64,000 nucleotides of DNA from Rhabditophanes sp. KR3021 (lineage: Eukaryota > Nematoda > Chromadorea > Rhabditida > Alloionematidae). Positions 23,472-43,542 of this stretch are shown here, in pieces. The stretch is from assembly GCA_963281155.1 (NCBI GenBank), contig CAUJLY010000006.1:930001-994000 (forward strand), in the 5' to 3' direction. Under the pieces are notes generated by a model. That model was not told the origin of the DNA, ran no database searches, and was given only the letters and a program-made list of their open reading frames with translations. Made by a program: the position numbers and the translations under genes. Every line of letters starts with the position of its first letter. The first letter of the stretch is position 1.

Positions 23472-23564
23472 TAGAAACCTTTTCAAGTCTCCTTCCAAAA
23501 TTTGCTAACAGTATTCATATAGAATCCTGAACGCATACTAACCTCAAACTGGGTTTTTTAAACC
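23472..23564 (-). ncRNA. spliced-leader (SL) RNA, copy B
   Basis: Read on the minus strand, 23564-23543 is a 22-nt leader beginning GGTTTAAAAAACCC and ending AGTTTGAG. The donor GTTAGT follows directly. After about 35 nt comes the Sm-binding site AAATTTTGG (around 23503-23495), then a 3' hairpin GAGACTT/AAGGTTTC with a GAA loop and one extra base. This is the full architecture of a nematode SL RNA, the Pol II snRNP that donates its leader to mRNAs by trans-splicing. It is about 90% identical to copy A at 43.45 kb in opposite orientation. The conserved upstream block (TATAAAAG and an element near -60) is also present. Confidence 0.92.
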
Positions 23565-23632
23565 ATCTCAGTAACTTTATTATCAGCTTTTATACACACA
23601 AATACGACAATCGAAAGTAGGACTTTGCACAG
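23565..23632 (-). promoter_or_regulatory. SL RNA promoter, copy B
   Basis: Immediately upstream of the leader, shared with copy A: TATAAAAGCTGA about 20-30 nt before the transcript, and about -50 to -65 an element reading AAAGTCCTACTTTCGATT. The latter has the position of a snRNA-type proximal sequence element. Conservation against diverged flanks supports function. Confidence 0.6.
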
Positions 23633-23714
23633 AGTAGTAGTATGATGTACATTTACATTTAAATGTGATATTCGTTTATAGTAAAACAAATCACTTCTTT
23701 TTTTAATATTTTAT

Positions 23715-23750
23715 TAGAAACCTTTTTATGTCTCATTCCAAACATTGTAA
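23715..23750 (-). pseudogene. SL RNA 3' remnant
   Basis: Minus-strand AATGTTTGGAATGAGAC followed by AAAAAGGTTTCTAATAAAAT matches only the Sm-site-to-hairpin end of the SL RNA genes. The leader and middle are absent and the Sm site has one change. It lies where the second exon of the adjacent receptor pseudogene should begin, marking a rearrangement breakpoint. Confidence 0.65.
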
Positions 23751-23766
23751 TGGGATCATACTAAAA

Positions 23767-24334
23767 TTAAGTAAAATATTGATGAAATAAACTTACAAAA
23801 TGCACTCCGACACCCATGGTGTTAATAATGAAGTTAGGATCAACAATGTTATCTTTTAAATTTTCAAGATAAACGTAATTCCTAGGAATTGTTCGATCAA
23901 AGATAAAGAAATATGCAATTGAGCATCCTATTGGAAACATAATTGTCAAAAGAATTCCAATGACAAAATGTTTATTTGTGAAGTCAATAGTATTTGTGAC
24001 ATACAAATATCTAGCAACCACATTCGTCGTCGAGAACGAAATATTGGTGAAAAGGCAAGCATTGCAGAAACACACTCAGTAGATCCATACTATCATCCTT
24101 AAATAAAGAAAAGACGTACGAAAGAAAAGCGTGTATTGTAATGAGCTCCAACCTTAATGCAAAGGCCGTTGTTGCGAAAATTAAATCCATTACAAATTGC
24201 GAGAATAATAATTTTATGTAAGCATTATACCTATTATTCTCCTTATAATTAGGCATTAAAGATAATGCTAATATGTTTCGAATCGATGATAAAATAAAGG
24301 TAACCCAAATAAAAATAGACATAAAGTTAAGCAT
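23767..24334 (-). pseudogene. serpentine receptor pseudogene (Str-like)
   Basis: Starts with ATG at 24334 and follows the 24.7-25.7 kb gene closely (ILALSLMPNYKE, LLFSQFVMDLIFA, FTNKHFVIGILLTIMFPIG, FDRTIPRNYVYLENLK). The part between TM2 and TM3 has lost residues and shifts frame near 24075 (after FKDDS). After the conserved exon-1 end (GVGVHF then GTAAG) no second exon exists; an SL RNA remnant lies there instead. Non-functional. Confidence 0.8.
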
Positions 24335-24678
24335 TTTGTTTGATAATAATTTTTCAAACTGATTATCTCATACAATTTGGTAGAATTATATATTATCCAT
24401 ACTTTTGTTTTGTCGGAAATTACGATGTAGCTATTATGAAATAAGCTAAACAAGGTAATTACGACTCACATGGATTTTCAAAAATCTGCGGAGGATAAAT
24501 ATGTACTCCACAGGAATTTTAAACATTCCTGTGAATTATAATAACTTACTTAAATGAAAAACAAAATAATCTTTTAGATTATAAAAATAAATATTTATGA
24601 CTTTATCCATATAATTTATAAGTACATACACGATCTGATTTGATAAAAATTATTTCAGACAATTAAATGAGTACAACT

Positions 24679-37997: not shown

Positions 37998-38302
37998 GCT
38001 GGGTTCCGTAACGGGAGATTGTCAGTCAGTGTCTTGACTGTATAATTTGAGGAAGACTTGCCCTCTGGAATCACAGTGGACCATTAAATGTTGACGATCG
38101 AGTGTCCGTGCCAAGCGTTGCGTCGATAGGCTTATCTTGGAGTAATCTTCGATAAATCGGTCGTGGTTTCGGCCTCTAAAGAGAGATGGAAGGCTCAGGA
38201 TCGAAAGGCAACAGGCAAAAGTTTCCGCGCGATGACAGTGGTCGGGTGGCGTACGCAAAGCATTTAGTACCACTTGCTAGGTTTATATAGTTTCACTCAA
38301 AT
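37998..38302 (+). ncRNA. signal recognition particle RNA (7SL)
   Basis: A GC-rich 300-nt island matching SRP RNA in order. The 5' Alu-domain start is GCTGGGTTCCGTAACGGGAG (U-GU-AA type motif). A central GATCGAGTGTCCGTGCCAAG corresponds to the human GATCGGGTGTCCG segment of helix 6. Then comes the helix 8 core GGATCGAAAGGCAACAGGCA followed by GATGACAGTGG, equivalent to the SRP54-binding region of human 7SL. The T6 run at 38302-38307 is the Pol III terminator. The RNA scaffolds the particle that targets signal-peptide ribosomes to the ER. The 5' end is uncertain by a few bases. The overlapping minus-strand open frame is a shadow. Confidence 0.9.
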
Positions 38303-39067
38303 TTTTTGGATAAATCAATCATTTTTCTACACTATTTAACAAATAGATAATAGCTATGTTATTTTATAATTGCGAATTTAAATACTTTTATACTAGATTT
38401 AATTGGTCTGACTGTTATAATAAAATGTACCATTTTTTGTAGCTTCTTTTCATTTTTCTTCCGATATGTGCTCACTGTTATGTCTGTTGTTACTGTAGTA
38501 ATTTTATTTTTATTTTTTTTATAAAAAATGAAGGTTTTAAGAATTGATATATTTTGATGATTTTTACTCACAAAAAAATAATTTCTACTCATTTGTTTTT
38601 CTTTTTAAGCTCTATAAGATATAAATGTTTTAAAGAAGATAAAAAATACACTACGAAAAATTAATATAGTAACAACAGACATAACAGTGCATATTCGACA
38701 CTAACACAGTTACATCATGGCCAGCATCAACTAAAAAATTATAATTGAAACTAGCAAATAATGTTACTTAAAGCATCCGCAATTTCAGACGCAAATACAA
38801 CATGTGAATAACCAAATTTGGGATTATAAATTAATATTTTGTATGGTTGAATAACAGTCAGTAAAAATGCAATTAATAAAAACAATCCACTAAACGCTAT
38901 CATCTTATAATATTATCTTGGTCTATTAATGTTTAGATTTAAGTATCAAAAAATTGTTATCTGTAAACAAAAAGTACCAATTAAGTTAATGCTTTTGATC
39001 AAATATATAATTTCAGTGTGATGACATGTTTCAAAGTAAATTCTTTTAATGTTTAAAATCAAGTTCA
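38303..39067. other. intergenic containing an inverted repeat
   Basis: No gene seen. A 22-bp perfect inverted repeat (38473-38494 and 38668-38689) encloses about 170 bp of A/T-rich sequence; see the repeat entry. Confidence 0.45.
38473..38689. repeat. foldback / MITE-like inverted repeat
   Basis: CACTGTTATGTCTGTTGTTA-CT at 38473-38494 recurs as its exact reverse complement at 38668-38689, and similarity extends several bases outward. No coding sequence lies between. It has the form of a small foldback transposon relic. Confidence 0.6.
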
Positions 39068-43383: not shown

Positions 43384-43449
43384 CAACAAAGTTCTACTTC
43401 CGATTTACACACATCGATGCATAAAAGCTGACAGTAAAGTTACTGAAAT
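43384..43449 (+). promoter_or_regulatory. SL RNA promoter, copy A
   Basis: Shares with copy B an element AAAGTTCTACTTCCGATT at about -63 to -45 and CATAAAAGCTGACAG about 30 nt upstream of the leader. The layout fits an snRNA-type proximal element plus a second box. Confidence 0.6.
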
Positions 43450-43542
43450 GGTTTAAAAAACCCAGTTTGAGGTTAGTATGCGTTCAGGATTCAATATGAA
43501 TACTGTTAGCAAATTTTGGAATGAGACTTGAAAAGTTTCTAA
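43450..43542 (+). ncRNA. spliced-leader (SL) RNA, copy A
   Basis: Leader exon 43450-43471 (22 nt: GGTTTAAAAAACCC then AGTTTGAG), donor GTTAGT at 43472, Sm site AATTTTGG at 43512-43519 and a perfect 7-bp 3' hairpin GAGACTT-GAA-AAGTTTC at 43523-43539. The length of about 93 nt is usual for nematode SL RNA. This RNA, as an Sm snRNP, donates the leader to the 5' ends of mRNAs. Near-identical to copy B, about 20 kb away in inverted orientation. Confidence 0.93.

Follow-up and report, generated by a model that had tools for sequence, protein, structure and literature searches.

The SL RNA gene at 43450

The window, i.e. the entire 64,000-nucleotide stretch of Rhabditophanes sp. KR3021 DNA analyzed here, carries on the forward strand a complete spliced leader (SL) RNA gene at 43450-43539 (copy A). 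The gene consists of the 22-nt leader GGTTTAAAAAACCCAGTTTGAG (43450-43471), the 5' splice donor GTTAGT (43472-43477), stem II with 7 pairs and one internal loop (43485-43505), the predicted Sm-binding site AAATTTTGG (43511-43519) and a 3' hairpin, stem III (43523-43539; GAGACTT-GAA-AAGTTTC, 7 bp with a 3-nt loop). Direct reading of copy A thus confirms the leader, donor, Sm site and hairpin reported in a sequence-only reading of this DNA; the span 43450-43542 given there has the correct start but runs past the end of the hairpin, which stops 3 nt earlier. The leader starts with GGTTT, contains a central CCCA and ends in AG before the GT donor, as is typical of SL1-type leaders, with 6 bases between GGTTT and CCCA, 5 between CCCA and AG, and GAG at the end. 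The Sm site starts 39 nt past the first base of the donor, inside the range of 20-60 nt past the donor that is the SLIDR default according to the text of PMC7986045.

Upstream of copy A, we identified a perfect match to the SL upstream element CTACTTCCGATT (also given as CTACTTCCG) at -56 (43394-43405), a TATA-like box CATAAAAG at -30 (43420-43427), one base off the family form TATAAAAG, and an initiator-like stretch ACTGAAAT (43442-43449), of which ACTAAGAC is the commonest form in the family.

A second complete gene, copy B, lies on the reverse strand at 23474-23564, with an identical leader GGTTTAAAAAACCCAGTTTGAG (23543-23564, reverse strand) and a promoter at 23587-23620 (reverse strand) that combines CTACTTTCGATT at -56 with TATAAAAG at -30. 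The two copies are 97% identical across 99 nt, and a search of the window for the 22-mer with up to 3 mismatches returned only these two places, both exact, compared to none in 100 shuffles. On the same strand as copy B and 243 bp upstream of it, a distance equal to one array unit, is a remnant of the 3' part of an SL gene (23709-23742) that begins within the Sm site and runs through the hairpin. The sequence-only reading mentions neither copy B nor the promoter, and the gene family described below is not visible from the window.

The remnant adjoins a Str/Srh-type chemoreceptor paralogue that lacks its C-terminal half (23709-24364, reverse strand); the two meet 18 bases past an intron-like stretch, where the remnant begins inside the Sm site. 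Two stretches of the N-terminal part of the neighboring paralogue, whose Pfam match provides the family assignment, are found in the truncated gene at 62% and 71% identity, and the 139-residue C-terminal part of the neighbor finds no counterpart there with an E-value below 0.41. At gathering scores, an Rfam search of the 64-kb window yielded only an SRP RNA and a tRNA, and no SL family. The identification of the SL gene therefore rests on its anatomy and on the gene family in the same genome. The SRP RNA gene is of the metazoan type (37998-38306, forward strand; 120 bits), and AACCCA is absent from the 148 bases read upstream of it. The nematode origin claimed in the sequence-only reading is borne out by a protein match: within the window, an open reading frame for a UGT shares 94% identity with a protein of Rhabditophanes sp. 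KR3021. The G+C content of the window is 28.7%, below the 32.16% stated for the Rhabditophanes diutinus KR3021 assembly in the text of PMC10676810.

Fold of the SL RNA and covariation

The free fold of copy A (-16.6 kcal/mol) pairs the Sm site with the 3' end of the leader. When the Sm site is held open, a constraint that mimics the state with Sm proteins bound, the predicted fold (-14.5 kcal/mol) consists of stem I, stem II, the open Sm site and stem III. Folding of the transcript, which had been suggested as a check, thus yields the three-stem SL RNA structure in the model only with the Sm site open, and the free fold closes that site. In the constrained fold, stem I is formed by AACC of the leader and GGUU spanning the donor, that is, the last G of the leader and GTT of the donor. 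The non-elegans middle of the leader and the donor sequence GTTAGT accordingly complement each other as the two sides of stem I, a pairing that had escaped the earlier reading. The counterpart in C. elegans SL1 is the pairing of TTACC with GGTAA.

Among 91 unique RNAs of standard length, the pairing of stem III is kept in 90.9% of the cells, compared to a mean of 84.4% and a maximum of 86.3% in shuffles, and at one pair position the variants C-G, T-A, T-G and A-T all occur. The 3' hairpin covaries in the SL family; because the shuffles ignore relatedness, the excess counts as support for this pairing rather than as proof. Stem II shows no such excess in the same 91 RNAs (92.0%, compared to a mean of 91.5% and a maximum of 92.9% in shuffles).

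A multi-copy family with one dominant leader

We searched the genome (44,845,725 bp in six contigs of 9.31, 7.88, 7.52, 6.57, 2.36 and 11.21 Mb) for relatives of copies A and B and found at least 132 SL RNA genes, which are present on all six contigs. The patterns that combine leader and Sm site produced 92 and 30 matches, the reversed controls giving 0 and 3; after 3 of these 122 matches were set aside by eye as unrelated, 13 genes with other Sm sites were added. The looser pattern GGTTTN{4,10}CCCAN{3,7}AGGT matched 140 places in the genome and 37 in the reversed control, and the count of 132 is a lower bound, with about 40 of the 140 places not among the matches listed. For the analysis of flanks, 12 SL genes were left out and one false place was dropped from the list, leaving 120 genes.

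The exact leader GGTTTAAAAAACCCAGTTTGAG is found in 115 of the 132 genes placed (107 of the 120 with analyzed flanks), and 12 minor leaders are distributed among the remaining 17. The promoter element, the TATA-like box and the hairpin are present in some of these 17, which could represent either minor SLs or copies in decay. The family patterns demand GGTTT and CCCA and are accordingly biased to the leader, so that strongly diverged leaders would escape them. A search blind to the leader, using the promoter element and TATA, returned 40 places, compared to 3 in the control; 38 of the 40 show the common spacing, each of them upstream of an SL gene, with the exact leader in 37 and a 23-nt form in one, a check that spans these 38 genes. 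The proposal that the leader provides a species-typing character is only half supported, in that the leader is close to fixed within the genome searched here.

The canonical SL1 leader GGTTTAATTACCCAAGTTTGAG has no match within 2 mismatches anywhere in the genome and is approached by one gene at 3 mismatches, which upholds the original description of the leader as different from that of C. elegans. No SL2-like gene was listed by patterns with spacing 2-12 and the TTTTGGAA Sm site. One gene with an intact leader (C1:3054301) has a GC rather than a GT donor and is possibly a dead copy.

Genomic layout

The layout was derived from 131 of the genes, the 132nd being C1:8705737. Contig C6 carries 49 of them, C1 29, C2 20, C3 17, C4 9 and C5 7. 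SL genes are over-represented near contig ends, with 30 of the 131 located less than 100 kb from one and 3.5 expected. Most of the genes (85 of 131) are solitary, and 46 form tandem groups of 2 to 4 with a unit of about 240 bp (spacing 231-250 bp).

SL genes also occur next to other small-RNA genes. Nine of the 16 U1 genes have an SL gene at a distance of at most 1 kb, compared to a mean of 0.07 and a maximum of 3 in 1000 circular shifts, a proximity count that is inflated by recent duplication, with five of the U1-SL pairs being near-identical; for 5S genes, the corresponding figures are 7 of 47, 0.20 and 3. The same distance holds for 2 of 13 U2 genes and for none of the 7 U5 and 6 U6 genes. 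There are U1 genes with an SL gene on the same strand a few hundred bases downstream; U1, SL and 5S genes are found inside 720 bp at C6:505595-506311, and U2, SL and U1 genes inside 1.4 kb at C5:57770-59082.

Promoters of SL genes and of other small-RNA genes

In the 107 exact-leader genes, CCTACTTCCGATT occupies positions -57 to -45, TATAAAA is present in 70 genes, at -30 in every one of them, and ACTAAGAC is located at -8 in 67. With up to 3 mismatches, the upstream element was detected in 117 of the 120 SL genes, compared to 24 and 25 of 5332 equal-sized stretches on the two strands of the window; the promoter element, the TATA-like box and the 3' hairpin occur together in 94 of the 120 SL genes read. 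In most of the exact-leader genes, TAATAAA follows the 3' hairpin from +92 on (per-base frequencies 0.87, 0.95, 0.90, 0.72, 0.95, 0.92 and 0.84 among the 107) and is a possible signal for 3'-end formation.

For comparison, we examined the promoters of 14 of 16 U1, 11 of 13 U2, all 7 U5 and 4 of 6 U6 genes (two U1, two U2 and two U6 genes were omitted as weak matches) and 12 distinct 5S upstream regions from 47 places. AACCCA is located at -56 to -59 in all 14 U1, 11 U2 and 7 U5 promoters; within 80 bases upstream, it is present in 3 of the 120 SL genes vs. all 32 U1, U2 and U5 genes, a set that includes near-identical duplicates and reduces to 22 distinct sites. Conversely, TATAAA is found in 82 of the 120 SL genes and in 3 of the 4 U6 promoters vs. 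1 of the 32 U1, U2 and U5 promoters. The SL genes therefore do not have the type of promoter that U1, U2 and U5 share in this genome (AACCCA without TATAAA) and, as judged by sequence, theirs is a type of its own. No description of such an SL-type promoter was found in the parts of the literature searched; the text available for Plectus reports no TATA for Pol II snRNA genes (PMC6436959).

The upstream regions of 5S and U6 genes have their own features. The motif A[AG]CCCA occurs in all 12 distinct 5S regions, as AACCCA at -67 in 10 of them, and in most of the 12 a TTGAGCTGG-like stretch comes after it. AACCCA is found at -67 in two of the four U6 genes as well, with GGCCCA in the other two, and the 5S upstream element is U6-like in both place and form.

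In Ascaris, the sequence of the leader is itself required for transcription of the SL RNA. In the present genome, the leader has letters in common with the U1/U2/U5 element, AACCCAGT, but we rejected the idea that it forms a full snRNA promoter element: on the 22-site matrix it scores -24.6, as do or better 6146 of 127960 background positions, and among 2000 shuffles 558 align equally well. The joint and the 5S/U6 matrices likewise gave no support. Against the 5S/U6 element AACCCATTTGAG, 16 of 2000 shuffles equal the leader, a post hoc result to be taken as a hint only. Reading the SL upstream element as a form of the snRNA element also failed, the resemblance being not above that of shuffles (1718 and 1181 of 2000 as good).

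A tentative scenario, which we consider somewhat less probable than its negation, is that the SL genes of Rhabditophanes abandoned the promoter common to U1, U2 and U5 in favor of an SL-only, TATA-type Pol II promoter, such that the supply of SL RNA would become separable from that of the other splicing RNAs, with the near-invariant leader perhaps serving as an internal element. The proposed order in this promoter would be CTACTTCCGATT, 14 bases, TATAAAAG and then ACTAAGAC reaching +1.

Identity of the gene and alternative interpretations

Taken together, these observations identify 43450-43539, with a probability of about 0.95, as an SL1-type spliced leader RNA gene of Rhabditophanes diutinus, a species name that we infer. 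The 22 bases of the leader are most likely spliced onto the fronts of mRNAs; transcription and trans-splicing would be expected from the conservation of the family, and the RNA would presumably also be capped and bound by Sm proteins. The predicted product is an RNA some 90-100 nt long that would associate with Sm proteins and start with GGTTTAAAAAACCC. This is a known kind of gene, and what is less expected is a promoter unlike those of the other splicing RNAs of the worm.

Within a working SL family, copy A itself might be a decaying pseudogene that is transcribed little or not at all. Its TATA box reads CATAAAA instead of TATAAAA and its initiator-like stretch ACTGAAAT instead of ACTAAGAC, stem II contains a G-A mismatch, and the hairpin loop is one base shorter. 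Worn relatives exist, among them the truncated unit at 23742-23709 and a copy at C6:495818 with an altered leader, the donor GTTATT and a weak hairpin. The internal bases CAATATGAATACTG, combined with the short loop, are copy A's own. Given its small departures, copy A is less surely active than copy B; decay nevertheless appears unlikely for a gene that retains an intact leader, donor and Sm site, all 7 base pairs of stem III and a perfect match to CTACTTCCGATT.

Much less probable are two readings that concern the whole family. Dispersal over all six contigs and the presence of at least one truncated fragment, the one that adjoins the truncated chemoreceptor gene, would suit a family that is mainly a SINE-like repeat of SL RNA origin and not a set of working genes, an interpretation that we regard as very improbable: the leader is identical in 115 of the 132 genes and in 37 of the 38 found without reference to it, stem III varies with compensating changes while the leader stays the same, and the promoter elements are conserved to -57, which implies that copying carried the upstream region along. 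Transcription by polymerase III is equally improbable. The frequency of TATAAA brings the SL genes close to U6 and sets them apart from U1, U2 and U5, and by the vertebrate U6 rule an upstream element combined with TATA points to this polymerase. However, the family consensus has no T-run past the hairpin, CTAATAAA being found there, TTTT sits within the Sm site, and, according to the text of PMC12803116, Pol II binds C. elegans SL1. The preferred reading remains that of a family of working SL1-type genes.

Comparison with other nematodes and implications

The closest parallel is Strongyloides ratti, a tylenchine nematode that likewise belongs to the Strongyloides clade (clade IV), in which, according to the text of PMC1657053, the SL1-like leaders have the same GGTTT...CCCA...GAG layout with spacings of 5-8 and 5-6, a range that includes the 6 and 5 of the Rhabditophanes leader. 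The comparison is one of spacing, and the RACE products of S. ratti described there include 19 leaders, all SL1-like, in contrast to the single dominant leader of Rhabditophanes. The SL2-like leaders of C. elegans have GGTTT-CCCA spacings of 3-4 and CCCA-AG spacings of 7-8 and, save one, end in AAG (text of PMC1657053), whereas the Rhabditophanes leader, with 6, 5 and GAG, is not of this kind. C. elegans SL1 RNA shares the 22-nt leader, the GAG end, the GT donor, the Sm site and the 3' hairpin, and its leader differs at four positions. The number of genes is also similar, a hundred or more in each case (about 110 for C. elegans SL1), but the C. elegans genes lie within the tandem 5S array (both statements from the text of PMC1657053), unlike the dispersed SL genes of Rhabditophanes. 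Pristionchus pacificus likewise has many SL1-type genes, 187, with seven SL1-type leaders reported (text of PMC7986045). The exact 22-mer was not found in the literature text searched, a search that leaders given in tables or supplements would escape, and the parts of the literature covered contain no treatment of Rhabditophanes SLs.

Here the SL RNA comes from a free-living species in the Strongyloides clade; it would serve as bait for trans-spliced mRNAs and operons in this group, and allows one to ask whether the loss of the canonical SL1 preceded parasitism. Within a single genome, the contrast between SL and snRNA promoters provides a test of how the small-RNA promoters of nematodes are distinguished.
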